Shown here piece by piece: positions 1,885 to 14,985 of a stretch of DNA of 35,760 bases. The translations under genes and the position numbers were made by a program. The notes under the pieces were generated by a model, which saw nothing but the letters and a program-made list of their open reading frames with translations, was not told the DNA's origin and ran no database searches. Each line of letters starts with the position of its first letter. The stretch's first letter is position 1. Source of the DNA: Gemmatimonadaceae bacterium (GTDB lineage: Bacteria > Gemmatimonadota > Gemmatimonadetes > Gemmatimonadales > Gemmatimonadaceae); the NCBI GenBank assembly GCA_017881585.1, contig JADGQS010000017.1:1-35760 (forward strand), written 5' to 3'.

Positions 1885-3464
1885 TTCGCCTCCAGCACTT
1901 TGATCTTGAGGTTTCCCATCAGCTGCAGCAGTTCCGCCTGCCGCGAGAGTCCGCCCACCACGAACCGCAGGTGCGCGGCGTCGGCGGGGAACTGGCCGAA
2001 GGTCGGGTCCACCGCCACCCATTCGCCGAGCCACACCTCGGCCCAGGCGTCGTAATAGAACTTGCCGTTCACATACAGGAGACCCGTCGCGATGCGCGCG
2101 GGGATCGCGAGCGCGCGCACCAGCGCCACGTACAACTGCGCGTGCTCGTTGCAGTCGCCCTTCCGAGAGTGCAGTACGGCAAGCGCGTTGGGCACGCTGA
2201 ACGTCACGGCCTTCGTGAGCGAGTCGAAGACCCATTGCTCTAGCTTCTGCGCGACCAATTTCGGGTTGCGCTCGTCGCCGATGATCTTGATCGCGAGCCT
2301 GATGATTTCCGGGTTGTGCGCCTGCAGCAGCGGCTCCTCGGCGAGTTCGTTCCGGAAGCGGGCCCTCAGGTCCTTCATCTGATAATCCTGCCACGCCGGC
2401 GCGTTCGCGCCGATGCTCGCGTCCTTCTCGCGCACCACCTTCAGCGTGTCTCCGCTGAAATGCTGGCGGCCGCCATCGAGGTCGTATCCCTTCAGGTTCG
2501 GCGCGCCGAGCTGAACGGTCATCGAGAGCAGCTTCGACCGCCCGAGCTTCGCGCCCGCCGCGATCGCCGTGCGCTCGAGAATGTCCCCCGTGCCCGCGTT
2601 CGCCGCCGTCGCGCGGTCGCGCGTGATGCGCCAGTTCTCGAACGCGAGCTCGTATGCCGTTCGCTTCAGCGTGATCCCATCGGGCTGCACCGCCTGCACG
2701 ATGCGACCCTGCGCGTCGATCCAGGCGGAGAACCCGCCCTTCGCGTCGGGTGTTCCCACGCGCCACGCGCGCACGGTGTCGGTGAGCGCGCTGACCCACT
2801 CGCCCTTGTCCTCGTTGAACTTCGCGCTGTCCACGAGCGTGAACAGCGACTCGGCGTCGATCGTGAAGGCCGTGACCGCCGAAGTCATTGCCGACGGATC
2901 GAACGTCGGCAGCGCGTACGTGCGCCCGACCTTCGGCTTGTCGCCGAGCGCGATCGCGATCGGAACGACGGCAGGCAGGAGGACGGGGCCGCGCACGCTG
3001 ACGCGCTGGCTGTCCGTCGGTTGCGTGCCCGTGTACTTCACGTAGACGACGGCCGAGTCGCCGTCCGCGCGGCCACCGGTATGCACCGGAGCGCTTCGCG
3101 AATCGACCTGCGTGTCGAACGTCTTGAGCGACAGGCCGCGCGAGAGCTTCACGATGGAGCGTTTCGACGTGCGCTGCTGCGTACCGCCCACCGGAAAATC
3201 GGCGACGAAATAGTCGATGGCGTCGACGCCGTTCGTGAGCGTGTCGATCGTCGTCGACGCGAAGCCGATCACCTTGCCGCCCTGTTCCACCGCGAAATAC
3301 GTGGCGCTCGGATTCAGCCGCAGGGCCGCCTCGGCGAGCCGCTGCGGACGTCCCTGGTAGAACTCGCGTTGGACGAGCATCGTGAGTCCCGCGCCCCACG
3401 CGCCGAGGATCACGACGGCGGCGAGGAGACGGGGTTGGCCGCGGCGCGCGAACTGCGACGGCAC
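1881..3464 (-). CDS. Membrane-anchored transglutaminase-like protein
   Basis: The protein has 527 residues from a GTG at 3464-3462, which sits 4 nt after the TPR stop. An ATG further upstream would lie inside the TPR gene. Residues about 10-30 form one hydrophobic segment (LLAAVVILGAWGAGLTML), probably a signal anchor that places the bulk outside the cytoplasm. The C-terminal part is a transglutaminase-like core: the nucleophile C438 sits in KGDCNEHAQLYVALVRALA, followed by YYDAWAEVWLGEWVAVDPTFGQ in two pieces (YYDAWAEVW, then WVAVDPTFGQ). The family normally has His before AW. Here the codon is GAC, Asp 472, while the third triad residue D486 is present. The activity is therefore uncertain: it may be an altered protease or amidase, or a non-catalytic binding domain. 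It overlaps the ABC ATPase by 4 nt. Confidence 0.85.
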   Translation of the reverse strand: MPSQFARRGQPRLLAAVVILGAWGAGLTMLVQREFYQGRPQRLAEAALRLNPSATYFAVEQGGKVIGFASTTIDTLTNGVDAIDYFVADFPVGGTQQRTSKRSIVKLSRGLSLKTFDTQVDSRSAPVHTGGRADGDSAVVYVKYTGTQPTDSQRVSVRGPVLLPAVVPIAIALGDKPKVGRTYALPTFDPSAMTSAVTAFTIDAESLFTLVDSAKFNEDKGEWVSALTDTVRAWRVGTPDAKGGFSAWIDAQGRIVQAVQPDGITLKRTAYELAFENWRITRDRATAANAGTGDILERTAIAAGAKLGRSKLLSMTVQLGAPNLKGYDLDGGRQHFSGDTLKVVREKDASIGANAPAWQDYQMKDLRARFRNELAEEPLLQAHNPEIIRLAIKIIGDERNPKLVAQKLEQWVFDSLTKAVTFSVPNALAVLHSRKGDCNEHAQLYVALVRALAIPARIATGLLYVNGKFYYDAWAEVWLGEWVAVDPTFGQFPADAAHLRFVVGGLSRQAELLQLMGNLKIKVLEAK

Positions 3465-3468
3465 GGCC

Positions 3469-4437
3469 CTAGCCGCTCTGCGCGTCGCGGGCGCGCCGGT
3501 AAAATGCCGCGGCGTCGGCGGGGCGGCCCATTCGGTCGAGCACGATGCCCACTCCCTTGAGCGCGCGCCAGTTCCCCGGCTCCAGGTCTGACGCCCTCTC
3601 ATAGGCCGCGAGCGCCTCCTTCAGGCGGTCGAGCTTGTTCAGCGCCTCGCCGAGATAGAAGTGCGCCGGCCCCGATTGCGGGCTCAGCTTGGCGACGTGC
3701 GCGAGCGGCTCCACGGCGTCGCGCCATTTCGCGCGGCGGCACGCGAGGATTCCCTGCTGCAGCAGCACCTCGGGATCGTCGCCGCGCAGCTTCGCCGCCC
3801 GTTTGAGTTCCGCTTCGGCGTCGTCGTAGCGAAGGCGGTTCGAAAGAATCGTCGCGCGCGCACAGCGCAGCACCACGCCGTCGGCGCCCGCACCGATCGC
3901 GCGCATCAGCACGCTCAGCGCGCCCTCGATGTTGCCGCGCTTGTCGAGCGCGCTCGCGAACGCGATGGCGGTCTTGACGTCGCCGGGATGCGCCTCGTGA
4001 ATGCTCTTGAGCTCCGCGAGCGCCGGCAGCGGTGTGGGGGGCGTGACCGCACGCTGGATGACCGGCGTCCGCAGCGAGCGCAGCGGCGGTGCCGGCGGCA
4101 TGGGAGCGGCTGGAGCGCCCTCCGGCGCCCCCGTGCGGCGTCTCGCGGCGTTCAGCGTGTTCTCGCGCGGCTGCGCTCGAGCAGACGCGGGCTGCGGCGC
4201 GGTATCGACGAACGTCGCGCCGCCGCGCGACTCGGCGTCATCGCTCAGGTCGAACGACCACTCACCGCAGACGGGCGGCTCGCGAACCGCGAGCGCGGCC
4301 TCGCCGTCACCCGCCTCGCCGTCGTTGCCGCGGCCCCGCTCGCCGACCGGCAGAAAGGGCATGCCCTCGAATACGCCGAGCGGAAGCTGCTCGGGATCGT
4401 TCGCGGGGATGCCCAAGGGTGGAGTGCGCTCCGTCAT
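3469..4437 (-). CDS. TPR-repeat protein
   Basis: The protein has 322 residues from the ATG at 4437-4435 (MTERTPPLGIP). An upstream ATG at 4473 would begin inside a palindromic repeat, so I prefer the later start. Residues 1 to about 140 are low-complexity, rich in Ala, Pro, Arg and acidic residues, and probably disordered. Residues about 145-322 carry at least four tetratricopeptide repeats, for example GPAHFYLGEALNKLDRLKEA and the following WRALKGVGIVLDRMG. There is no signal peptide, so it is probably a cytoplasmic scaffold. It is the first gene of a four-gene minus-strand cluster with transglutaminase, ABC ATPase and permease. The spacing of 4 nt or less implies a shared transcript. The specific partner is unknown. 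Confidence 0.85.
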   Translation of the reverse strand: MTERTPPLGIPANDPEQLPLGVFEGMPFLPVGERGRGNDGEAGDGEAALAVREPPVCGEWSFDLSDDAESRGGATFVDTAPQPASARAQPRENTLNAARRRTGAPEGAPAAPMPPAPPLRSLRTPVIQRAVTPPTPLPALAELKSIHEAHPGDVKTAIAFASALDKRGNIEGALSVLMRAIGAGADGVVLRCARATILSNRLRYDDAEAELKRAAKLRGDDPEVLLQQGILACRRAKWRDAVEPLAHVAKLSPQSGPAHFYLGEALNKLDRLKEALAAYERASDLEPGNWRALKGVGIVLDRMGRPADAAAFYRRARDAQSG

Positions 4438-4445
4438 GACGGGGA

Positions 4446-4473
4446 AATCTACAGCGAGGAGCGACGGTACCAA
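4446..4473 (-). promoter_or_regulatory. Candidate promoter for the TPR-ABC cluster
   Basis: On the minus strand TTGGTA (4473-4468) is followed after 16 nt by TAGATT (4451-4446), and the ATG at 4437 lies only 8 nt after the -10. This would give a leaderless or nearly leaderless mRNA, consistent with the lack of a Shine-Dalgarno sequence. The -35 lies in the left arm of the palindrome. Confidence 0.4.
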
Positions 4474-4582
4474 CAGGAACGAGCGACGGGTGAGGGGCTT
4501 CCAAGAAGCGACGAGCGCCTCTCACCCGTCGCTCGTTCCTGTTGGTACCGTCGCTCGTAGCTGTTCGTCCCGTCGCTCCTCG
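4455..4582. repeat. Palindrome built of 22-bp tandem units
   Basis: A perfect 36-bp inverted repeat is seen at 4459-4494 and 4521-4556, with a 26-nt loop. The right arm is itself part of a tandem array: units at 4526-4547, 4548-4569 and a partial unit at 4570-4582 all begin CCGTCGCTC and are spaced 22 bp apart. The left arm carries the reverse of the same units, including the partial one at 4455-4467. It lies between the divergent TPR gene and uvrA, so it could affect both promoters. It may be related in origin to the 7-bp-period elements elsewhere in the window. Confidence 0.9.
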
Positions 4583-4631
4583 CACCACGGAGCTTGTTTC
4601 AGAGTGCCGCTCCCATCATTTTTATCAGGCT

Positions 4632-7454
4632 ATGCCCGAAGACGCCCTGATCGTACGCGGTGCCCGCGAGCACAATCTCAAGAACATCGACGTCACGATT
4701 CCCCGTGACCGGCTGACGGTCATCACGGGTCTGTCGGGTTCGGGAAAGTCTTCGCTCGCGTTCGACACGATCTTCGCGGAGGGCCAGCGGCGGTACGTCG
4801 AGTCGCTCTCCGCCTATGCACGGCAGTTCCTCGGGCTGATGGAGAAGCCCGACGTCGACGCGATCGAAGGGCTTTCGCCCGCGATCTCGATCGAGCAGAA
4901 GACCGCCGGCCACAACCCGCGGTCCACCGTCGGCACCGTCACCGAGATCTACGATTACCTGCGCCTCCTCTACGCGCGGGCGGGCACCCCGTATTGCGCC
5001 AACTGCGGCCGGCCCGTGGAGCGGCAGAGTGCCGGGCAGATAGCCGACACCGTGCTTGGCTGGCCCGACGGCACTCGCATCGAGATCCTCGCCCCGCTCG
5101 TGCGCGGCCGGAAGGGTGAATTCCGCGAGCTCTTCGAGTCCGCGCGCAAACAGGGATTCGTCCGCGCCGTGGTGGACGGCGCGCTGATCGAACTCGCCGA
5201 ACCGCCGAAGCTCAACCGCAAGGTGAACCACGACGTCTCGGTCGTAGTGGACCGTCTCAGTGTGCGCGCCGACGACCGCGGCCGCCTCACCGACTCGCTC
5301 GAGACCGCGCTGCGCCTTGCCGATGGCTTGGTGCAGGTGAGACGAACCGGTGGCGGCAAGAACGAGACACAGCTCTTCAGCGAGAAGTACGGCTGCCCGA
5401 CCTGCGGCATCTCCATGCCCGAGCTCGAGCCGCGCCACTTCTCGTTCAACTCGCCCTTCGGCGCCTGCCCCGCGTGCAGCGGACTCGGAACCCGCCGCTC
5501 CGCGAGCGCAGAGCTCGTCCTCGGCGATCCGAGCATCTCGCTCCTCGAGGGTGTGGTGCTTCCGTGGGGCGAGCCCGACGGATACCTGCGCCGGGTGATC
5601 CTTCCCGCGCTCGCGAAGCAGCTGAAGTTCGAGCTCAATACGCCCTGGGGAAAGCTCCCCGCGCGCGTACAGGAGGTCCTGCTGTACGGTCTCTCGAAGA
5701 AGCGCGGCGATCCCGAATCGGCGGGAAAGTGGGAAGGAATCCTCTCGAACGTGCAGCGTCGCTACAACGAGACCACGAGCGACTCCGTGCGCAACGAGCT
5801 CGAGGAGTACATGGTCGTCGCCGTCTGCCCCGAGTGCAAAGGGATGCGGCTCAAGCCGGAGTCGCTCGCGGTGACGATCGCCGGCAGGAACATCGGCGAG
5901 TTCGGCGAACTCTCGGTGAGCGACGCGAATGATTTCGTTCTCTCGATTCCGCTTCGCGCGCCCGGACAGCCGGGGCTCGACGCGGACATCGCGGGCCCCG
6001 TGCTGAAGGAAGTGCGCGAGCGACTGCGCTTCCTCATGGACGTCGGGCTCGAGTACCTCACGCTGAACCGCAGCGCGGAATCACTCTCGGGCGGCGAGGC
6101 GCAGCGCATCAGGCTCGCCACGCAGATCGGCTCCCGCCTGGTGGGCGTGCTGTACATCCTCGACGAGCCGAGCATCGGGCTGCACCAGCGCGACAACGCG
6201 CGGCTGCTTGCGACGCTTATGCGGCTTCGCGATCTCGGCAACACGGTGATCGTCGTCGAGCACGACGAGGAAACGATCCGCGCCGCCGACCATTTGATCG
6301 ACCTCGGACCCGGGGCCGGGAAGCACGGCGGCCAGGTGATCGCTGAGGGCACCGTCGCGGAGGTGCTCGCGAATCCCAAGTCGATCACGGCCCAGTATCT
6401 CTCGGGGCGCACGCGCATCGCGATTCCGGCCGAGCGCCGCGCACGCGACGTGCGGCGCACGCTGCGCGTGGAAGGCGCACGCGAGCACAACCTGCGGAAT
6501 GTGACCCTCGAAGTTCCGCTCGGACTCTTCGTTGCCGTCACCGGCGTCAGCGGTTCGGGAAAGTCCACGCTGATCGAGGACATCCTGCACCGCGCGCTCG
6601 CGCGACATCTCTATCGCGCACGAGTCCTCCCGGGCGAGCACACCCGCATCACCGGGCTCGAACATCTCGACAAGGTCATCGACATCGACCAGAGCCCGAT
6701 CGGCCGCACGCCACGCTCGAATCCCGCGACGTACACGGGACTCTTCACGCCGATTCGCGAGTTGTTCGCGGAGATGCCGGAGGCAAAGCTTCGCGGCTAC
6801 GGTCCCGGCCGTTTCTCGTTCAACGTGAAGGGTGGCCGCTGCGAGGCGTGCCAGGGCGACGGCCTCGTGAAGATCGAGATGCACTTCCTCCCAGACGTCT
6901 ACGTCACCTGCGAGACGTGCAAGGGGAAGCGGTACAATCGCGAGACGCTGGAGGTGCGCTTCCGCGGCCTGAGCATCAGCGACGTGCTCGAGCTCACGGT
7001 CGAAGACGCGCTCGCGCTGTTCGAGCACCAGCCGCGCATCGCGCAGAAACTCGCGACGCTCAACGACGTCGGGCTCGGCTACATCCACCTCGGCCAGAGC
7101 GCCACGACACTGAGCGGCGGCGAGGCGCAGCGCGTGAAACTCGCAACCGAACTCTCGAAGCGCGACACCGGCCGCACGCTGTACATCCTCGACGAACCGA
7201 CCACCGGCCTCCACTTCGAAGACGTGCGCATGCTGCTGCACGTGCTCCATCGCCTCGTCGATCGCGGCAACACGGTGCTCGTGATCGAGCACAACCTCGA
7301 CGTGATCAAGACCGCCGACTGGGTCGTCGACATGGGCCCCGACGGCGGAAACCGCGGCGGCACGATCGTCGCCGCGGGAACGCCGGAAGACGTGAGTCGC
7401 GTGAAGGCGTCCTATACCGGGCAGTACCTTTCACCCATGCTCGCCCGAAAGTAG
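4632..7454 (+). CDS. uvrA: Excinuclease ABC subunit A
   Basis: UvrA scans DNA for bulky lesions, loads UvrB and starts nucleotide excision repair. The protein has 940 residues from the ATG at 4632 ([18 protein letters not shown]), the usual family length. An earlier in-frame ATG at 4542 lies inside the palindrome and adds 30 non-family residues. Visible features are Walker A GLSGSGKS at 33-40, a zinc module CPTCG...CPACSGLG at about 255-290, a first LSGGEAQR signature at about 485, a second Walker A GVSGSGKS at about 638, the zinc finger CEACQGDG...CETCKGK at about 737-765, and a second LSGGEAQR at about 825. Both ATPase halves and the zinc sites look intact. It stops directly against the next start codon (TAG then ATG). 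No LexA-type operator was recognised upstream. Confidence 0.98.
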
Positions 7455-8123
7455 ATGGTCTCCCTCCTCGACATCATCGGCCCGGTGATGGTCGGCCCGA
7501 GCAGCAGCCACACCGCCGGCGCCTGCCGGCTCGGGCTGCTCGCGCGCTGCCTCGTCGGCGGCACTCCGCAGAAGGCGCGACTCGAGCTGCACGGATCGTT
7601 TGCCCGGACCGGCGAAGGCCACGGCACCGACAAGGCGCTCGCCGGCGGCCTCATGGGCTTTCGCCCCGACGACGAACGCATTCGCACCGCACTCGAGATC
7701 GCCGAGCGCGAAGGGCTCCAGTATCGCTTCGAGAAGACGACGCTCGGCGAGGAGCTGCATCCGAACAGCGTCCGCCTCACGGTCGAGCGCGGCGCGCATT
7801 CACACGTCATGGTCGGCTCGTCGCTCGGCGCAGGGCGCGTGTTCATCACCGAGATCGACGGGTACCCCGTGGAAGTCCACGGGAACTGCCACACGATCGT
7901 GCTGCTCGCCGAGGACGTGAAGGGCTCGATCGCGCGCATCGCCGCGATCCTCGCGGAAGGCAACTGCAACATCGCCACGCTCCGCCTCACGAGAAAGGAA
8001 CGCGGCGGCGACGCCTTCATGGTGATCGAGGTGGATGAACAGCCCGGCGAGAACGTCAGAGACGATATCAAGAAGCTGGCGTGGGTCCGCTGGACCCATC
8101 GATTGGATAAAGTCTCGGCGTAG
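7455..8123 (+). CDS. sdaAB: L-serine dehydratase, beta subunit
   Basis: The protein has 222 residues and starts with ATG immediately after the uvrA stop, with no gap. The N-terminus SLLDIIGPVMVGPSSSHTAG is the characteristic beta-domain motif of iron-sulfur L-serine dehydratases. The C-terminal third (from about residue 148, VHGNCHTIVLLAEDVKGSIA) is an ACT domain, normally involved in binding a small regulatory ligand or in assembly. With the alpha subunit encoded next it deaminates L-serine to pyruvate and ammonia in the cytoplasm. The two-gene arrangement is the form known from Bacillus; E. coli has the fused version. Co-transcription with uvrA is implied by the abutting codons, which is an unusual functional pairing. 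Confidence 0.95.
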   Translation: MVSLLDIIGPVMVGPSSSHTAGACRLGLLARCLVGGTPQKARLELHGSFARTGEGHGTDKALAGGLMGFRPDDERIRTALEIAEREGLQYRFEKTTLGEELHPNSVRLTVERGAHSHVMVGSSLGAGRVFITEIDGYPVEVHGNCHTIVLLAEDVKGSIARIAAILAEGNCNIATLRLTRKERGGDAFMVIEVDEQPGENVRDDIKKLAWVRWTHRLDKVSA

Positions 8124-8178
8124 AAGCCGGAAGCCGGAAGCCGGAAGCCAAAAACCAACGACCAAGAACCAAATACTT
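8123..8178 (+). repeat. 7-bp-period repeat between sdaAB and sdaAA
   Basis: Starting at 8123, three perfect copies of GAAGCCG are followed by GAAGCCA, AAAACCA, ACGACCA and AGAACCA. This is an unbroken register of 7 bp in which CC(A/G) ends every unit. It fills the whole gap and ends at the TTG start codon of sdaAA. No inverted partner was seen here. The second half matches the ACCAATG word family found at 9070 and 15918. Confidence 0.85.
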
Positions 8179-9062
8179 TGTACTCGTCTTTAGCAGCCGC
8201 AATCAGAGACGCTGAGGCTCAGCGCAAATCTCTCGGCGTCCTCGCGCTCGAGACCGAGTCTCGCGATCAAGCCCGCCCCATAGAGGAAATCCGCGATGCG
8301 CTCGCCCGCGCGCTGCATGTCATGCGCCGCGCCATTGATCAAGGCATGACCGGCGATCTCCACTCCGCGAGCGGACTCGTCGGCGGCGACGCCGCGAAAT
8401 TGCGGCACGGGCCGCCCGGACCGCTCTCCGGCACACCGTTCCGCGACGTGCTCGCCCGCGCGCTCGCGGTCCAGGAAGTGAACGCCGCGATGGGTGTCAT
8501 CGTCGCTGCTCCCACGGCGGGAGGCGCCGGAATCCTCCCGGCGGTTCTCACCGGCCTCGCGACCGCGCGCGGAATTCCTGATGAGCAGGTGATCACCGCG
8601 CTCGCGACCGCCGGGCTCATCGGCGCAGTCGTCGCGGAACGCGCCTCACTCTCCGGCGCCGAGGGCGGGTGCCAGGCCGAGACGGGCGCGGCCGCTGGAA
8701 TGGCCGCCGGCGCGGCGACGGAAATGCTCGGCGGCTCGCCGAGCCAGGTTGGACACGCCGTCGCGCTCGCGCAGCAGGCAACGCTCGGGTTGATCTGCGA
8801 TCCGCTCGGCGGGCTGGTCGAGCTGCCGTGCGTGTTCCGGAACGCGACGGGGAGTGCGATCGCACTCGCGGCCGTGGAGATGGCGCTCGCGGGAATCACC
8901 TTCGCGATTCCGGCGGATGAGGTGATCGATGTGATGGGCGAGATCGGGCGCGAGATGGATGTGCGGTACAGGGAAACAGCCGGTGGCGGGCTGGCGGCTA
9001 CGCCCACCGGGCGCCGGTTGGCGCGGGAGCGGATGGTGCAGATCAAGAGGTCGGGATCGTAA
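8178..9062 (+). CDS. sdaAA: L-serine dehydratase, alpha subunit (4Fe-4S)
   Basis: The protein has 294 residues. The start is TTG at 8178, the only initiator before the conserved SLAAAIRDAE region; no Shine-Dalgarno precedes it, only heptamer repeats. Three cysteines that ligate the 4Fe-4S cluster in this family are visible: C165 in AEGGCQAETG, C207 in GLICDPL and C218 in ELPCVFRN. The spacings of 42 and 11 match the family pattern known from Legionella serine dehydratase (C343, C385, C396). The Gly/Ala-rich stretch around GVIVAAPTAGGAGILPA is also typical. With the beta subunit it converts L-serine to pyruvate and ammonia. Length and motifs are complete and there are no signs of decay. Confidence 0.95.
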   Translation: MYSSLAAAIRDAEAQRKSLGVLALETESRDQARPIEEIRDALARALHVMRRAIDQGMTGDLHSASGLVGGDAAKLRHGPPGPLSGTPFRDVLARALAVQEVNAAMGVIVAAPTAGGAGILPAVLTGLATARGIPDEQVITALATAGLIGAVVAERASLSGAEGGCQAETGAAAGMAAGAATEMLGGSPSQVGHAVALAQQATLGLICDPLGGLVELPCVFRNATGSAIALAAVEMALAGITFAIPADEVIDVMGEIGREMDVRYRETAGGGLAATPTGRRLARERMVQIKRSGS

Positions 9063-9069
9063 TGAAAGC

Positions 9070-9154
9070 GGGTAATCGGTCATTGGTCGTAGGTCATTGG
9101 TTCTAGGCAAGCAGAGCCAATCACCAACGACCAATGACCAAGTACCGATTACCC
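9070..9154. repeat. Inverted heptamer-repeat element after sdaAA
   Basis: The left arm (9070-9108) starts GGGTAATCGG and repeats the word CATTGGT. The right arm (9116-9154) repeats ACCAACG, ACCAATG and ACCAAGT in a strict 7-bp register and ends CCGATTACCC, the reverse complement of the left start. The arms pair imperfectly around a short loop. It begins 8 nt after the sdaAA stop and could fold at the end of that transcript. There is no T tract. Confidence 0.85.
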
Positions 9155-9160
9155 GAAGTC

Positions 9161-9192
9161 TGCAGTCAGGCCTCTATGCAGTCAGGCCTCTA
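9161..9192 (+). repeat. 16-bp perfect tandem duplication
   Basis: TGCAGTCAGGCCTCTA occurs at 9161-9176 and again at 9177-9192 without a mismatch, followed by the AT-rich TTTATAGA. It lies in the gap before the YbjN-like gene. It could be a recent slippage or recombination product. A promoter in the AT-rich part is possible but I could not pair it with a good -35. Confidence 0.85.
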
Positions 9193-9292
9193 TTTATAGA
9201 TGCGCGACTAGCGGTTTCCGAGTGTCGGAGTGAAACTTCGTCATGGCTCCCCGGCGTATTGAACGCTGAAGCCCAACCACCGAGAAACTCCT

Positions 9293-9697
9293 ATGGTTTC
9301 GCACGACGACATCGTCAGCTTCCTCGACCGCCTGTCGGCCGACGGCGCCACGCACACCGAGCTGTCCGAAGGCATCTGGAACGTCAAACCCGCCGGCGCG
9401 CTCGATTTCGGCGTGGTGGTGAACTATTCGCCGCCGGTTGTCGTCCTTCGCATCAAGGTCATGGATCTTCCCGCGGGTGGCCCGCAGCGGGGCGCGCTCG
9501 AGCACCGTCTGCTCGAGCTCAACGGGAACGACTTGTTGCACGGCTCCTACGGCATCCAGAAGGACGAAGTGGTTCTCATCGAAGCCCTCGAGCTCGAGCA
9601 CCTCGACTTCGAGGAATTCCTCTCCGCGTACGAAAGCATCACTCTGGCGCTCGCATCGCACATTCGCGAACTGGCGTCGTTCCGCGAGGCTCGCTGA
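9293..9697 (+). CDS. YbjN-like domain protein
   Basis: The protein has 134 residues from the ATG at 9293; a weak purine run (GAGAAA) precedes it. The sequence VSHDDIVSFLDRLSADGATH followed by a beta-rich middle (FGVVVNYSPPVVVLRIKVMD) and an acidic helical end (HLDFEEFLSAYESITLALA) resembles the YbjN / type III secretion chaperone-like fold. These are small cytoplasmic proteins whose roles are mostly unclear; some act as chaperones or sensory-transduction regulators. Only 2 nt separate its stop from the ATG of pspA, so co-expression is likely and a role in the same envelope response is possible. The family assignment is by pattern and is moderate. Confidence 0.75.
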   Translation: MVSHDDIVSFLDRLSADGATHTELSEGIWNVKPAGALDFGVVVNYSPPVVVLRIKVMDLPAGGPQRGALEHRLLELNGNDLLHGSYGIQKDEVVLIEALELEHLDFEEFLSAYESITLALASHIRELASFREAR

Positions 9698-9699
9698 CG

Positions 9700-10461
9700 A
9701 TGGGCATCTTCGATCGCATCGCCACGCTCTTCAAGTCCAACATCAACGACCTGATCTCCAAGGCGGAGAATCCGGAAAAGATGCTGGACCAGATCCTGAT
9801 CGACATGCGCAACCAGCTTGCGCAGGCCAAGCAGCAGGTGGCCAGCTCGATCGCCGACGAGAAGCGCCTCAAGGACCAGGCCGAGGCCGAGTATAAATCG
9901 GCGCAGGACTGGGAGGCGAAGGCGATGCTCGCCGTGAAGCAAGGACGCGACGACCTCGCGAAGCAGGCGCTGCTCCGCCACACCGAGAGCCTGCAGCACG
10001 CGAATCAGCTCGAGGAGACCTGGCAGACCCAGCAGGCGACCGTCGAGAAGCTCAAGAATTCGCTGCGCGACCTCAACGACAAGATCGAGGAGGCCAAGCG
10101 GAAGAAGAACCTGCTCCTCGCGCGCCAACGGTCCGCGCAGGCGCAGCAGCGCATCGCGCAGACCATGTCGGGCATGTCGGAGAAGAGCGCGTTCGAGGCG
10201 TTCGCGCGGATGGAGGAGAAGATCGCGAACAACGAGCGGCAGATCAAAGCGTCGGTGGAGATCGACGAAGAGTTCTCCGGCGACCGCCTGCAGAGCGATT
10301 TCAAGAAGCTCGAGCGCGTCGCGGGCTCCGCAAGTGCCGACCAGCAGCTGATGGCACTCAAGGAGAAGATGGGACTCCTGCCGCCCGGCAGCTCGTCGCC
10401 CGCGCGCCAGCTCGGCGCCGGTGAAGAGACGGTCAACGCCGAGATCCAGGAGAAGAAGTAG
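9700..10461 (+). CDS. pspA: PspA/IM30 family protein
   Basis: The protein has 253 residues from the ATG at 9700 (MGIFDRIATLFKSNINDLI), the standard PspA N-terminus, which forms an amphipathic membrane-binding helix. An open frame extending further upstream is non-coding sequence. Residues about 25-150 are a long charged coiled coil (for example EKRLKDQAEAEYKSAQDWEA), followed by the helical AFEAFARMEEKIANNE region and a Pro/Ser-rich tail. Members of this ESCRT-III-like family polymerise on the inner face of damaged membranes and preserve the proton gradient. No pspF-type regulator or other psp genes are adjacent. It sits 2 nt after the YbjN-like gene and just before a PerM-type membrane protein. 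Confidence 0.95.
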   Translation: MGIFDRIATLFKSNINDLISKAENPEKMLDQILIDMRNQLAQAKQQVASSIADEKRLKDQAEAEYKSAQDWEAKAMLAVKQGRDDLAKQALLRHTESLQHANQLEETWQTQQATVEKLKNSLRDLNDKIEEAKRKKNLLLARQRSAQAQQRIAQTMSGMSEKSAFEAFARMEEKIANNERQIKASVEIDEEFSGDRLQSDFKKLERVAGSASADQQLMALKEKMGLLPPGSSSPARQLGAGEETVNAEIQEKK

Positions 10462-10472
10462 CGTTGCCCGCC

Positions 10473-11615
10473 ATGGGCGCTGACAGGTTGGTGAATGCCG
10501 GCGCGGTGCGCCGCGTCCAGCTCCTGCCGGGGCTCACGGCGGTCGTCTTTACCATCCTCCTGCTCTGGCTGGCGGGCAGGGTGGCCGGTCTGTTGCTCCT
10601 GCTCTTCATCGCGGTGCTCATCGCGGTCTATCTCGACGCGCTGAACGAATTCATCGCCGCGCGCACCAAGCTCGGGCACAGGTCCGCGTTCGCCCTTGCG
10701 CTCTTCCTCACGCTCGTCGTGCTGACGGGAATCGCCGCGCTGCTCGTTCCGCCGCTGGTGGAACAGACCCGGCAGCTCATCCTGAAGCTTCCGGACTACG
10801 CGATCGCGTGGAAGGACCGGCTCGGCCGGCTCCCGCAGCAGTTCCCGGCGCTCCAGCCGATGCTTGGGCCAGACGCGCAGTCGCAGTTCGTGTCGTCGGT
10901 TCTCGATCAGGCGCGGGGTCTCGTCGGGGGTCTGCTTCCGAAGGTGTTCGACGTCGTGCACGGGTTCATCGATGTCGCCTCGACGCTCGCCATGGCGTTG
11001 TACCTGGCGTTGCATCCCGCGTCGTACCGCGACTTCTTGGTTTCCATCACGCCGCCGCGGCATCGTGACGCCACGCGTGACGTGCTCACGGCGCTCGGCA
11101 AGACGCTCCGCGCGTGGGTGCTCGCACAGCTGCTCACGCTGGCCGTGCTCGGCGCGATGATGGCCATCGGTTTGCGCCTGCTGAACGTCCCGTACTGGCT
11201 TACGTTCGGCATCTTCTGCGGCCTCGCCGCCATCGTGCCGTTCTTCGGCACGTTGATCTCGACCATCGTGCCCGCGCTCTTCGTGCTCGGCGGCGGCGGC
11301 GGCCTCGGGGGCGCGCTGCTCGTTCTTCTCCTCGGCGTACTCGCGCATCTCATCGAAGGCAACGTGATCGCGCCGCTCATCATGCAGCGAGGCGTGAACC
11401 TTCCCCCGGTCTTGTCGATCATGGCGGTGCTGATCTCCGGCACGCTGCTCGGGCCGTTCGGCCTGCTCGTCGCGATCCCTGCGCTTTGCGTCGTGATGGT
11501 GCTCATTCGAAAGGTCCTCATCGAACGCGTGTACGGAGACGTCGCGACTCCGGAAGAGCATCGCGAGGACGCGGAACTCGCGCTCGCGCCCGCCAACCCG
11601 GGTCCGGCGGAGTAG
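10473..11615 (+). CDS. AI-2E/PerM family membrane protein
   Basis: The protein has 380 residues from the ATG at 10473; a TTG at 10464 in the same frame is an alternative start with GGAG at a better distance. It is polytopic: paired helices at the N-terminus (LTAVVFTILLLWLAGRVAGL and the next), a third (FALALFLTLVVLTGIAALLV), a soluble middle region with LLPKVFDVVHGFIDVASTL, and a bundle of C-terminal helices ending GPFGLLVAIPALCVVMVLI. This matches the AI-2E transporter (UPF0118/PerM) family, whose members include autoinducer-2 exporters and Na+/H+ antiporters; the substrate cannot be read from sequence. The last 30 residues are hydrophilic and acidic. It follows pspA by 11 nt and its transcript probably ends at the 11789-11823 hairpin. 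Confidence 0.9.
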   Translation: MGADRLVNAGAVRRVQLLPGLTAVVFTILLLWLAGRVAGLLLLLFIAVLIAVYLDALNEFIAARTKLGHRSAFALALFLTLVVLTGIAALLVPPLVEQTRQLILKLPDYAIAWKDRLGRLPQQFPALQPMLGPDAQSQFVSSVLDQARGLVGGLLPKVFDVVHGFIDVASTLAMALYLALHPASYRDFLVSITPPRHRDATRDVLTALGKTLRAWVLAQLLTLAVLGAMMAIGLRLLNVPYWLTFGIFCGLAAIVPFFGTLISTIVPALFVLGGGGGLGGALLVLLLGVLAHLIEGNVIAPLIMQRGVNLPPVLSIMAVLISGTLLGPFGLLVAIPALCVVMVLIRKVLIERVYGDVATPEEHREDAELALAPANPGPAE

Positions 11616-11640
11616 CGGTAGTCCGTTGGCGGTGGAACAG

Positions 11641-11945
11641 GGATGAGTGGGGAGATTCGACCCGATGCAGGATGCAGAAGAGGAATGCGGAGACAGGGAC
11701 AAGTCGACCCAATGCAGAATGCAGAAGAGGAATGCGGGATGCGGATAAGAGTTGAGACGCGAGTTGGATGCGGGGGTGCCAAACAACGAAGGGCGCGACT
11801 CACTCGAGTTCGCGCCCTTTCTCATGTCTCCCTTCTTGGTACCGCATCCCGCATTCCTCTTCTGCATTCTGCATCGGGTCGAGATCCCGCATCCCGCATT
11901 CCTCTTCCGCATTCTGCATCGGGTCGAATCTCACCACTCATCCCT
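11641..11945. repeat. Long palindrome of 33-bp units with 7-bp period
   Basis: Two near-identical 33-bp units (11658-11690 and 11705-11737) are followed, after a central hairpin, by two reverse-complement copies (11849-11881 and 11894-11926). Inside each unit the words GATGCAG, AAGAGGA and ATGCGG repeat at 7-bp steps. The flanks also pair: GGATGAGTGG at the left end with CCACTCATCC at the right end. The whole gap between the PerM-type gene and the small ABC ATPase (11616-12021) is therefore one composite palindrome of about 305 bp. No open reading frame with coding character was seen in it. Confidence 0.92.
11789..11823 (+). terminator. Intrinsic terminator at palindrome centre
   Basis: A 10-bp stem AAGGGCGCGA / TCGCGCCCTT (11789-11798 with 11810-11819) has an 11-nt loop and runs into TTTCTC. 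It lies at the centre of the long palindrome and is preceded by an A-rich stretch (CCAAACAACG), so it could work in both directions. It probably ends the sdaAA to PerM-type transcript. Confidence 0.75.
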
Positions 11946-12021
11946 CTCCCTCCGCACTCTTTCGCCATCGCGCGCAAAAACTTGGTGACACTCCACGCCG
12001 CCGCCGCGTGCACATTGCCGC

Positions 12022-12744
12022 GTGTCCCCGTTCGCGCTCGAACTCCGCAGCGTTACCCGCCGCTATCGCGCCGGCGTCACCGGTTGCTCCGGTGAAGTCA
12101 CCGCGCTCGACCGGGTCTCGCTGACCGTCGCTCCGGGTGAGTGCGTGGGCGTGGCCGGCGCTCCCGGGTCCGGCAAGAGCACGCTGCTCCTGTGCGCCGC
12201 CGGGATTCTCCGGCCGCACGAGGGCACGGTCCGCGCCGTTCCTGCCGCGTTCGTGGCCCGTCGCGGCAGCAGCGAGGCCCAGCTTGGCTCGCACGCCGCG
12301 CTCACCCACGCGCTGCGCGCCGCGCCGCGGCTGCTCTGTCTCGACGACCCGCTCGCCCTGCTCGACGAGTCCGCTCGCGAGCGCTATGTCACGCTGCTCC
12401 ACAAACTCCGGGGAGCCGGTGTCGCCGTTCTCATCAGCGGGCGAAATCCGCAGACGCTCGATTCCTCCTCGTCGCGCATCGTCACGCTGGAATCCGGCCG
12501 GATTTCGCGGGCAGTCCAGCGGCGTCGCACGCTGGAGCTCGAAGTCGGCATGCCGTCGTACGCGGCGACGGCGCTCGCGAACCGCATCCCGAGCGTCCGC
12601 AGACTCGGGCACGCGCTGCGCGTTGCGCTCGACGACGTCACCGCGGAAGAGGTGCTGAGCGCGTGCCTCGCGCTGGGGATCCGCGTGCACGGGTCGCGCG
12701 TCATTACGACGGCGGCGCCGGGGAGGGTAGCGGAGGCCGAGTGA
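12022..12744 (+). CDS. Shortened ABC ATPase lacking the helical subdomain
   Basis: The protein has 240 residues from a GTG at 12022; no clear Shine-Dalgarno. Walker A GAPGSGKST is at 46-54 and Walker B LLCLDD at 104-109, about 55 residues apart where ABC ATPases normally need about 110. The missing part is the Q-loop and most of the helical subdomain. The signature is degenerate (RGSSEAQ in place of LSGGEAQ), the catalytic Glu after Walker B is Asp 109, and the H-loop His is absent (LISGRNPQ). The last 60 residues (LELEVGMPSYAATALANRI onward) resemble the C-terminal extension of ABC-2 exporter ATPases. The frame is open with strong codon bias, so it is a real gene. No permease is adjacent. 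It may bind nucleotide without efficient hydrolysis. Function unknown. Confidence 0.8.
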   Translation: MSPFALELRSVTRRYRAGVTGCSGEVTALDRVSLTVAPGECVGVAGAPGSGKSTLLLCAAGILRPHEGTVRAVPAAFVARRGSSEAQLGSHAALTHALRAAPRLLCLDDPLALLDESARERYVTLLHKLRGAGVAVLISGRNPQTLDSSSSRIVTLESGRISRAVQRRRTLELEVGMPSYAATALANRIPSVRRLGHALRVALDDVTAEEVLSACLALGIRVHGSRVITTAAPGRVAEAE

Positions 12745-12793
12745 GGGGGTACGAGCAGTGCCGTCCGGCCCCGTACCGCCGTAACTTTCACTC

Positions 12794-14206
12794 GTGCCCG
12801 ACTTCCTCCTCCACAACTCCCTCACGCGCGAGACCGAGGCGTTCGCGCCCGCGGACGGCCGCACCGTGCGGCTGTACACGTGCGGTCCGACGGTCTACAA
12901 CGCGGCGCACCTCGGCAACTTCCGCACGTTCCTCTTCGAGGACCTGCTGCGGCGCGTGCTGCGGCTGCGGGGATGGGGCGTCGAGCAGGTGATGAACCTC
13001 ACCGACGTCGACGACAGGATCATCAAGCGCGCGACCGAGCAGCAGAAGACCATCCGCGAGCTCACGGATCCCGTGATCGAGGTGTTCCACGAGGATCGCG
13101 AGTTCCTGCGCATCCAGCGTGCGGAGCACTATCCGCGCGCGACGGACTTCATCGCCGAGATGATCGAACTCGTGCAGCGCCTCGTGGACAAGGGCGTCGC
13201 GTACAAGGCGGACGACGGATCGGTGTACTTCGCGATCGGCAAGTTCCCCACGTACGGCAGGCTCTCGCGGCTCGACACGCGTGAACTGAAGACCGGCGCG
13301 CGCGTGGCGCAGGACGAGTACGCGAAGGAGAACGCGCAGGATTTCGCGCTCTGGAAAGCGGCGAAGCCCGAAGACGAGCGGTGCGGCGCCGTGTGGGAGT
13401 CGCCGTGGGGGCGCGGCCGTCCAGGCTGGCATCTCGAGTGCTCCGCCATGGCGATGACGATCCTCGGCGAGACGATCGACCTCCACTGCGGCGGCGTCGA
13501 TCTCATCTTCCCGCACCACGAGGATGAGATCGCGCAGAGCGAGGCCGCGACGGGAAAGACGTTCGCGCGCGTCTGGTGCCACGGCGAGTTCCTGCTCACC
13601 GACGGCTCGAAGATGGCGAAGCGCGTCGGCAACGTGAGCACGGTGTCGGACCTGCGCGCGGCGGGCGTGGGCGCCGCGGCGCTGCGGCACTTCGTGTTCT
13701 CGACGCACTATCGCAAGCAGCTGAATCTGTCGGGCGACGCACTCAAGGCATCGTCGGAGGCGGTCCGTCGGATCGGCGATTTCGCCGACCGGCTCGAGCG
13801 CGAGTCGGCCGGAACGCCGGCGCTCGCGGAGGCGGCGGAGACGCTGCTCATCGAGGCGACGACCGCGCTCTCGGACGATCTCAACGCGCCGCGCGCGATG
13901 GGCGCGCTGTTCGAGTTCATCACGGCGGCCAACCGCGAGTTCGATGCCCGTGGAACGTCGGCCGAGGCGGTGTCGCGCGCGCGCGAGGCATTCCGTCAGG
14001 TGAACGCGGTGCTCGACGTCGTGCCGGACCGCGGTCTCGACGACAGCGAGCTGTCGTCGTGGGTCGAGGATCAGTTGCGCGAGCGCGCGGCTGCTCGTCA
14101 GCGGCGTGATTTCGCGGCGGCGGATGCGGTGCGCAAGGCATTGGAAGAGAAGGGGATAGCGATAGAGGATTCGCCTTCCGGGACGCGCTGGAAGAAGCTG
14201 CGCTGA
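12794..14206 (+). CDS. cysS: Cysteine--tRNA ligase
   Basis: The protein has 470 residues, the usual length, from a GTG at 12794 (MPDFLLHNSLTRETEAFAP). It charges tRNA-Cys with cysteine in the cytoplasm. The class I HIGH motif appears as HLGN in CGPTVYNAAHLGNFRTF, zinc ligands are visible at CGPTVY, HLECSAMA and FPHHEDE, and the KMSKS loop is written KMAKR (GSKMAKRVGN). The C-terminal helical anticodon region ends RRDFAAADAVRKALEEKG, as expected. No Shine-Dalgarno is present. TAACTT at 12782-12787 lies 6 nt before the GTG and could be the -10 of a leaderless transcript, though the -35 region is poor. It is followed by the tRNA promoter. Confidence 0.97.
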   Translation: MPDFLLHNSLTRETEAFAPADGRTVRLYTCGPTVYNAAHLGNFRTFLFEDLLRRVLRLRGWGVEQVMNLTDVDDRIIKRATEQQKTIRELTDPVIEVFHEDREFLRIQRAEHYPRATDFIAEMIELVQRLVDKGVAYKADDGSVYFAIGKFPTYGRLSRLDTRELKTGARVAQDEYAKENAQDFALWKAAKPEDERCGAVWESPWGRGRPGWHLECSAMAMTILGETIDLHCGGVDLIFPHHEDEIAQSEAATGKTFARVWCHGEFLLTDGSKMAKRVGNVSTVSDLRAAGVGAAALRHFVFSTHYRKQLNLSGDALKASSEAVRRIGDFADRLERESAGTPALAEAAETLLIEATTALSDDLNAPRAMGALFEFITAANREFDARGTSAEAVSRAREAFRQVNAVLDVVPDRGLDDSELSSWVEDQLRERAAARQRRDFAAADAVRKALEEKGIAIEDSPSGTRWKKLR

Positions 14207-14856: not shown

Positions 14857-14976
14857 GACGGCAGGGGACAGACGGCGGACGGCAGTGACCGTGTGTCGAC
14901 CCCTCGGCCGAGGTGACGTAAACAATATTCTGGCGATTCGCCGTTGGCTGCCATCTGCCATCTGCGGTCTGCCGTC
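14857..14976. repeat. Inverted heptamer-repeat element after tRNA-Thr
   Basis: The right arm (14948-14976) runs CTGCCAT, CTGCCAT, CTGCGGT, CTGCCGT at exact 7-bp steps. The left arm (14857-14885) is an imperfect reverse complement (GACGGCAG...GGACGGCAG). Between them lie the 12-bp palindrome CCTCGGCCGAGG (14902-14913) and an AT-rich patch TAAACAATATTCT that could contain a -10 but lacks a clear -35. The element occupies the place of tuf in the tRNA-tufB-secE arrangement. Confidence 0.85.
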
Positions 14977-14985
14977 TGAGGCTCT

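Follow-up and report, generated by a model that had tools for sequence, protein, structure and literature searches.

MITEs are short, non-autonomous elements with inverted repeats that are dispersed in genomes, and BIMEs have been claimed as gyrase or nucleoid-protein sites. As described in PMC3733652, REPs are units of 20-40 bp, often arranged as inverted dimers, that are located mostly between convergent and codirectional genes, with conv-REPs at up to 20 bp from 3' ends; REPs of the CGTC type have stems of 8-9 bp, loops of 4-5 nt and an unpaired CGTC tag, and are without a dedicated transposase. The heptameric repeats GGGAATC of Xanthomonas and GGGGAYT of Nostoc are likewise dispersed, mostly intergenic, often found as inverted pairs and variable between close species, and inverted heptad pairs capable of forming a stem-loop were counted in 70 and 75 cases in two Xanthomonas (PMC4692102). 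Hairpins can also be made and repaired by template switching, as studied in RNA genes (PMC8794818). The main text of PMC3733652 does not mention Gemmatimonas or Gemmatimonadetes. In the open-licence literature, we found no paper joining Gemmatimonas with repetitive extragenic palindromic elements, and none of those retrieved on intergenic palindromic repeats of Gemmatimonadetes concerned such elements according to its title and the beginning of its abstract.

The element described here is located upstream of uvrA in a window of 35,760 nucleotides (the whole stretch of DNA that was analysed) from a 3.09-Mb draft genome of a Gemmatimonadota bacterium in 240 contigs (the own genome, G000). Results of our analysis indicate that it is probably a rearranged member of F1, as we named a family of non-autonomous hairpin repeats that are dispersed in genomes of a Gemmatimonadota genus. 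F1 resembles MITEs in being short, non-autonomous, dispersed and built of inverted repeats, but no target-site duplication was seen at the one filled/empty pair of F1 sites inspected. With REPs, it shares dispersal, palindromic structure, a mostly intergenic location and the vicinity of 3' ends, while it falls outside their short-stem definition; no unpaired GTAG or CGTC end tag was found in it, and CGTC, as judged by eye, is placed inside the paired arms. A 7-nt period additionally sets F1 apart from REP/BIME. Units of 7 nt, dispersal, intergenic location, inverted pairs and variability between close species are what F1 has in common with the repeats of PMC4692102; the latter, however, are G-rich tandem heptads, 16% of which are between convergent genes, whereas F1 comprises degenerate heptads in long mosaic modules with a shared centre, and 23 of its 42 resolved intervals are convergent. 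The inverse of one arm appears to be written into the other, as in the template switching of PMC8794818, likely at one F1 locus (L130) and possibly at the window element, although F1 is a dispersed repeat without general arm covariation. F1 combines features of REPs, heptameric repeats and template-switch hairpins.

The hairpin element upstream of uvrA

The earlier note, made from the sequence of the window, reported a perfect 36-bp inverted repeat with 22-bp tandem units at 4455-4582 between divergent genes. The structure is real. Positions 4451-4498 and 4517-4564 form an inverted repeat of 48 nt that is 94% complementary, with 18 nt between its halves, and its longest perfect stem (36 bp) pairs 4459-4494 with 4521-4556. 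TRF detected a period of 22 with 2.4 copies at 4526-4578, the units of the right arm being 4526-4547 and 4548-4569. The limits had to be corrected, as self-BLAST places the shared element at 4451-4583. The RNA fold of 4441-4600 has an energy of -113.7 kcal/mol (z -11.6), and none of 200 shuffles was equally stable. The element takes up much of the spacer between the minus-strand TPR gene, which starts at about 4437, and the ATG of uvrA at 4632. The features are as follows:

3469-4437, minus strand: gene of a TPR-repeat protein, divergent from uvrA (TPR_19, 4.9e-13)
4447-4451, minus strand: ATCTA motif, possible -10 region of the TPR gene (ATCTA in 15/16 genus upstream regions)
4451-4583, no strand: whole dispersed element of family F1, common to at least 3 other own loci (self-BLAST coverage among 51 own loci, up to 26 others here)
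4459-4494, plus strand: left arm of the perfect 36-bp stem
4468-4489, minus strand: left-arm 22-bp unit, whose exact inverse is the extra right-arm unit absent in the sister genome G011
4495-4520, no strand: short inter-arm stretch, occupied in G011 by a usual-type F1 centre (alignment with G011)
4521-4556, minus strand: right arm of the perfect 36-bp stem
4526-4578, plus strand: right-arm 22-bp tandem units, 2.4 copies (TRF)
4592-4600, plus strand: GCTTGTTTC motif, possible -35 region of uvrA (GCTTG exactly 40 bp before the ATG in 15/16 genus upstream regions)
4632-7454, plus strand: uvrA (UvrA_inter, 2.3e-36; UvrA_DNA-bind, 2.3e-23)

A consensus scan of 4380-4700, in which 0 sigma-70-like promoters were found, gives no support to the proposal that the left arm supplies the -35 of the minus-strand cluster. 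The same region contains 0 terminator-like sites (a GC hairpin followed by a T-run), and Rfam models at gathering scores gave 0 matches in 3000-13000. A scan of the window for GYGA chains gave no match; its criterion was probably too strict.

A second UvrA-like protein, 51% identical to that of the window, is encoded at G000:C9:4829-7621, and a similar second match is present in most of the 18 genus genomes.

Copy number and anatomy of the F1 family

The earlier note suggested a local operator array and named many copies of the unit in unrelated positions as the observation that would favour a dispersed repeat. The search was run, and many copies at other sites were found. Allowing up to 3 mismatches, an 18-nt pattern derived from the unit matches the genome 113 times in forward and 108 times in reverse orientation, as compared to 20 and 32 times for the reversed control, and BLAST with a 160-nt query yielded 177 matches at E up to 10. 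Fifty loci fetched around the matches and the window, 51 in total, were compared with one another by self-BLAST. Related intervals of at least 45 bp, each common to at least 3 other loci, number 46 in 45 of the 51 loci, and are defined by sharing among loci rather than by individual confirmation as F1. Intervals below 45 bp (L105, the first of L107, the second of L108, and L119) were left out, and four loci (L101, L109, L118, and L140) have no interval. The loci, as well as the shared and own-only sites considered below, were drawn from the search matches and are a non-random sample.

The size of 31 of the 46 intervals is 150-327 bp. Folding far better than that of simple two-base block shuffles (z < -3) characterises 35 intervals; the remaining 11, without unusual folding, are short fragments or other repeats. 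In a typical F1 element, mutually inverse left and right arms of at least 50 nt are separated by almost no loop, and the centre resembles GTGAGGAGYGAGGAGAC/GTCTCCTCRCTCCTCAC. The arms are strings of modules that end in GCGACG and follow each other in steps of 7, 22, 29 or 36 bp. The excess of base identity at lag 7 in 35 F1 elements has a z of +41, with further peaks at 14, 22, 29 and 36, block shuffles of the same simple type being the reference. The remark of the earlier note that 22 equals 3x7+1 was therefore apt. The perfect 36-bp stem does not stand out within the family, as perfect runs of at least 35 bp are present in 4 of 35 scored elements.

In a collection of named genomes, an exact 24-nt module pattern matched two stretches, both in Gemmatimonadetes MAGs, and a scan of viral contigs for the module pattern gave 0 stretches.

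Comparison of the arms

Arms were compared in 28 of 35 elements; the window copy, L130 and the five elements in which fewer than 39 of 55 positions are paired were left out. In these 28, an average of 45 positions of the 55-nt arms are paired. In a first comparison, made before the elements were oriented, arms resembled each other less within elements than between them (a value as high was reached in 9995 of 10000 permutations), which suggests a polarity and was read as a mixture of two orientations. Orienting by a two-profile model yielded two arm types, whose consensus sequences differ at four positions; because the elements were oriented on the data that were then compared, the two types are partly a product of the fitting. 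Two arm types with polarity are what would be expected if one founder was copied.

No arm covariation was detected in the 28 oriented elements: identity is 45.43/55 within elements, as against 45.80 between them (a value as high arose in 9252 of 10000 permutations), and selection on pairing that is visible as covariation was thus rejected. Mismatches of G-T and A-C type between the arms are about equally frequent (83 and 93), and so give no sign of RNA-strand selection. As far as these comparisons indicate, there is no sign that pairing at variable positions would be kept up by selection. This weighs against a strict RNA-structure function and also against common arm-to-arm copying.

Location of F1 copies

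The spacers of the 46 intervals are convergent in 23 cases, codirectional in 12, divergent in 7 and unresolved in 4, with gene calls made by a home-made codon-usage script and overlap cases classed by hand (L123, L133, and L137 as convergent, L121 and L130 as codirectional). The convergent share of the resolved intervals is thus 23/42 and the divergent one 7/42, the window copy being among these seven. Other spacers of more than 60 bp in the same loci and the window, themselves taken near elements, are convergent in 6 of 54 cases (Fisher p 4.7e-6 vs. F1), and spacers of at least 30 bp in the relative G014 in 18 of 139 (p 1.2e-7 vs. F1); these tests are not strictly independent, because two intervals of L093 share one spacer. 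The distance of F1 to flanking 3' ends has a median of 7 bp (34/50 at up to 20 bp), and that to flanking 5' ends of 49 bp (5/24 at up to 20 bp). Since F1 is most often convergent and near 3' ends, the window copy is in an atypical place. The dispersal of the unit and the position of the mapped copies, mainly at gene 3' ends, speak against the local operator array of the earlier note.

The uvrA spacer in related genomes

F1 was found at E 1e-5 or better in 6 of the 61 genomes searched, the own genome included, and 4 of the 18 genus members are among the six. An even draw of 395 genomes of the phylum gave the same six carriers, but weak or diverged copies may be missed in both searches, because only 13 candidates per genome were scored in the former and 2 in the latter.

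The UvrA of sister G011 is 98% identical to that of the window (matched in two pieces), and the flanking DNA is 90.6-92.5% identical. At the same uvrA site, G011 has an F1 copy with the usual centre. This centre is missing from the window copy, in which the stem is separated from the shared outer right-arm unit by an additional 22-bp unit that exactly inverts the left-arm unit. One fold-back template switch would account for both the loss of the centre and the extra unit; deletion of a 22-bp unit in G011 together with deletion of the centre in the window copy would explain them as well. The two pieces in which uvrA of G011 was matched (G011:C127:127151-129920) overlap, which reflects a frameshift or an assembly error.

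Upstream regions of uvrA were usable in 16 of the 18 genus genomes, as the loci L081 and L086 start within the gene. While the own genome and G011 carry F1 there, none was seen by eye in the other 14. GCTTG is present exactly 40 bp before the ATG in 15/16 regions, ATCTA further upstream in 15/16, and both in 14/16; both are retained in 12 of the 14 genomes without F1. The spacing between them is 140 bp in the own genome and 206 bp in G011, and ranges from 9 to 111 bp in the 12 element-free genomes (20-22 bp in five of them, 48 bp in G014). The uvrA spacer of G002 contains a different repeat, of GTGAGGGG type. We infer that F1 landed between two putative divergent promoters, putative because the consensus scan gave no sigma-70-like site.

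Turnover between close relatives

Twelve own loci correspond to 12 of the 21 distinct G011 places examined (26 loci). At these shared sites, the flank alignments are 85-97% identical, some of them running through the element, and F1 units were gained, lost or replaced. At L130, the left centre arm and the right arm of the own copy are the same over 18 nt; the left arm of G011 differs, and the right arms of the two genomes are identical at 55/55 positions. This is the clearest trace of arm-to-arm copying.

Three own elements (L132, L135, and L136) were followed up, chosen for their absence among the G011 loci. The copy at C144:15675 (L132) has no counterpart in G011, G014 and G002, which have short spacers with aligned flanks 13-20 bp apart and no element of any kind. 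No full F1 copy was seen by eye at L136 and L135 in these three genomes. The site of L135 is occupied by another hairpin family, F2, in G011 and G002, and by a short F1-like or GTGAGGGG-type fragment in G014; at the site of L136, G014 has another long hairpin and G002 a short one.

Centres of four of seven shared sites (L097, L103, L115, and L125) are identical to their G011 counterparts at 34-43 of 52 positions, no better than in the same-arm comparison among own paralogues (about 43), although these identities are understated because the comparison was ungapped and L097 has an indel. Inversion of the core between species was considered and is not supported: the flipped orientation exceeds the same orientation by at most 3/52, in 2 of 7 pairs.

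The same module was also seen by eye in genome-specific spellings at the same sites (L099/L053/L064 and L111/L155/L054), namely, GCGACGGGTGAGG in the own genome and G011, GCGAAGCATGAGG in G014 and GCGACTGGTGAGG in G002, which suggests homogenisation within genomes.

Mobility

The Y1 transposase family PF01797 (RAYT), the genomic partner of REPs of the GTAG type only, was represented by 0 proteins in the own genome (90% complete) and in 0 of the 5 other carriers, with a control that was positive in 5 of 14 known genomes. A RAYT-driven REP was therefore rejected, no PF01797 being found in the six F1 carriers. The ends of F1 vary between copies, and inspection by eye of the single filled/empty pair (L132), the spacers of which have diverged, revealed no clean target duplication.

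Other heptad-armed hairpins

Positions 11639-11950 of the window contain a copy of F2, the second dispersed hairpin family, with arms of CCGCATTCCTCTTCNGCATTCTGCATCGGGTCG type and a lag-7 z of +7.1. F2 has 58 matches in the own genome, many of them as a minus arm followed by a plus arm 100-200 bp apart. A GC-rich, terminator-like inner hairpin, AAGGGCGCG..CGCGCCCTT, lies at the centre of the F2 copy in the window and of three others, two from the own genome and one from G011. These inner hairpins are followed by only 2-4 T, and the G002 copy at the L135 site, as judged by eye, is without the GC-rich core.

In 400 kb of G014, a small survey made with a home-made gene caller, long inverted repeats (score of at least 20) are present in 4/18 convergent, 2/86 codirectional and 0/34 divergent spacers of at least 30 bp; of the four in convergent spacers, one is F1-like. 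The lag-7 z is +5.4 in convergent spacers without F1-like motifs (10 spacers) and +5.7 in codirectional spacers with an inverted repeat (8 spacers), and is weaker in divergent spacers (+2.4) and codirectional spacers without a strong inverted repeat (+1.4). Two G014 hairpins, C1:104899-105069 and C6:38577-38835 (L192-L211), have the same arms, of GTTAACC ACTAACT GTTGGTC GGTTAACC type, and different cores, one of which is followed by a T-run and resembles an intrinsic terminator.

A long inverted repeat with GGGGAGTGGCGAGGGTGAG-type arms occurs in the own genome (L018 2762-3031, contig C184 at about 13309-13578) and in L050 3540-3711, i.e., in the own genome and MAG contig PMYN01000024.1. Tandem repeats of 7 bp are present in the window at 8123-8149 (GAAGCCG x3.9) and 14948-14978 (CTGCCAT x4.4).

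Discussion

F1 elements are mostly long, two-armed hairpins of 7-nt-periodic modules that are located mainly in spacers, most often between convergent genes near stop codons. Close relatives differ in which copies they have and in how these are made up, and a copy at the uvrA site is present in the window species and its sister. Multi-copy, mainly in spacers and palindromic, F1 is best filed as a REP/BIME-like dispersed hairpin family. The earlier note had also offered a neutral repeat made by the same process as the heptad elements. We favour a neutral or selfish dispersed hairpin; the lag-7 periodicity of F1 is strong and the second repeat of the window is likewise heptad-armed.

F1 would spread as a unit by means of a trans-acting enzyme or a copying process and would be tolerated where no promoter is hit. 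At gene ends, it may form a bidirectional RNA hairpin, serving at most incidentally as a 3'-end or termination structure. Its arms would change as units of 7, 22, 29 or 36 bp are gained and lost, with fold-back template switching as an occasional further cause. One such switch probably removed the centre of the window copy and added the perfect copy of its left-arm unit, and the main effect of the insertion between uvrA and the TPR gene may have been to push apart two promoter-like motifs.

Of the other explanations, the likeliest is that F1 and the other heptad hairpins are kept by selection as bidirectional terminators or protectors of mRNA 3' ends of converging transcripts. We regard it as possible, though doubtful. 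The convergent enrichment and closeness to stop codons would fit such a role, as would other heptad hairpins at the same spacers in relatives, the terminator-like inner hairpin of F2 in the window and three further copies, and the preference of long inverted repeats in G014 for convergent spacers (4/18, as compared to 2/86 codirectional and 0/34 divergent). However, the arms show no covariation, their G-T and A-C mismatches are about equal, and 4380-4700 contains 0 terminator-like sites. The short T stretches after the F2 inner hairpins, the coreless F2 copy of G002 and the lack of any element at the L132 site in three relatives also argue against it, and convergent spacers are at the same time the safest landing sites.

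A MITE-like origin seems unlikely to us; F1 would then descend from an insertion sequence by deletion, and a DDE transposase recognising the ends of the arms would move it. Such an origin agrees with the inverted-repeat structure, the dispersal and the own-only copy at C144, but F1 ends vary between copies and the filled/empty pair inspected has no clean target duplication. Neutral growth de novo, i.e., formation of each hairpin locally by heptad slippage and fold-back copying with no transposition, is less likely still. The 7-nt periodicity of several hairpin families and the two G014 hairpins with the same arms and different cores are in its favour; F1 copies, however, have long specific modules and polarity in common, which suggests copying of an existing F1 element. 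The very stable stem is what could point to a cruciform-forming switch or a structural DNA site, e.g., for gyrase or a nucleoid protein, which we consider improbable. The perfect palindrome with 22-bp units between divergent genes would suit an operator array at which a dimeric regulator controls uvrA together with the divergent TPR cluster. This reading is very improbable, and a local operator was rejected, since the unit is dispersed over dozens of other sites, most often between convergent genes (23 resolved intervals vs. 7 divergent of 42), and F1 is absent from the 14 other upstream regions of the genus, 12 of which have both promoter-like motifs.

The dispersed hairpin reading of F1 may have a broader form, which is speculative and which we hold rather unlikely. 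Gene 3' ends of this genus would be a nursery of heptad-armed hairpin families (F1, F2, and at least the GTTAACC and GAGCTGA types of G014), some of them built around terminator-like cores, with one family taking the place of another at the same convergent spacers when sister species are compared. Common to them would be a process that adds 7-nt steps to one side of a terminator hairpin, with fold-back synthesis copying them to the other side, and the families would be self-spreading without a transposase.

As a dispersed hairpin with copies at dozens of places, mostly at gene ends, the window element is for that reason probably not a private on/off switch for the adjoining genes, and a tempting regulatory reading of the promoter region of a DNA-repair gene is removed. 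In its place stands a fast-changing hairpin family without the usual Y1 transposase, and comparisons of F1 between sister species make it possible to follow the growth, shrinkage and movement of palindromic repeats in bacteria. The 7-nt period common to different hairpin families is the part worth following, and it can be tested in these genomes.
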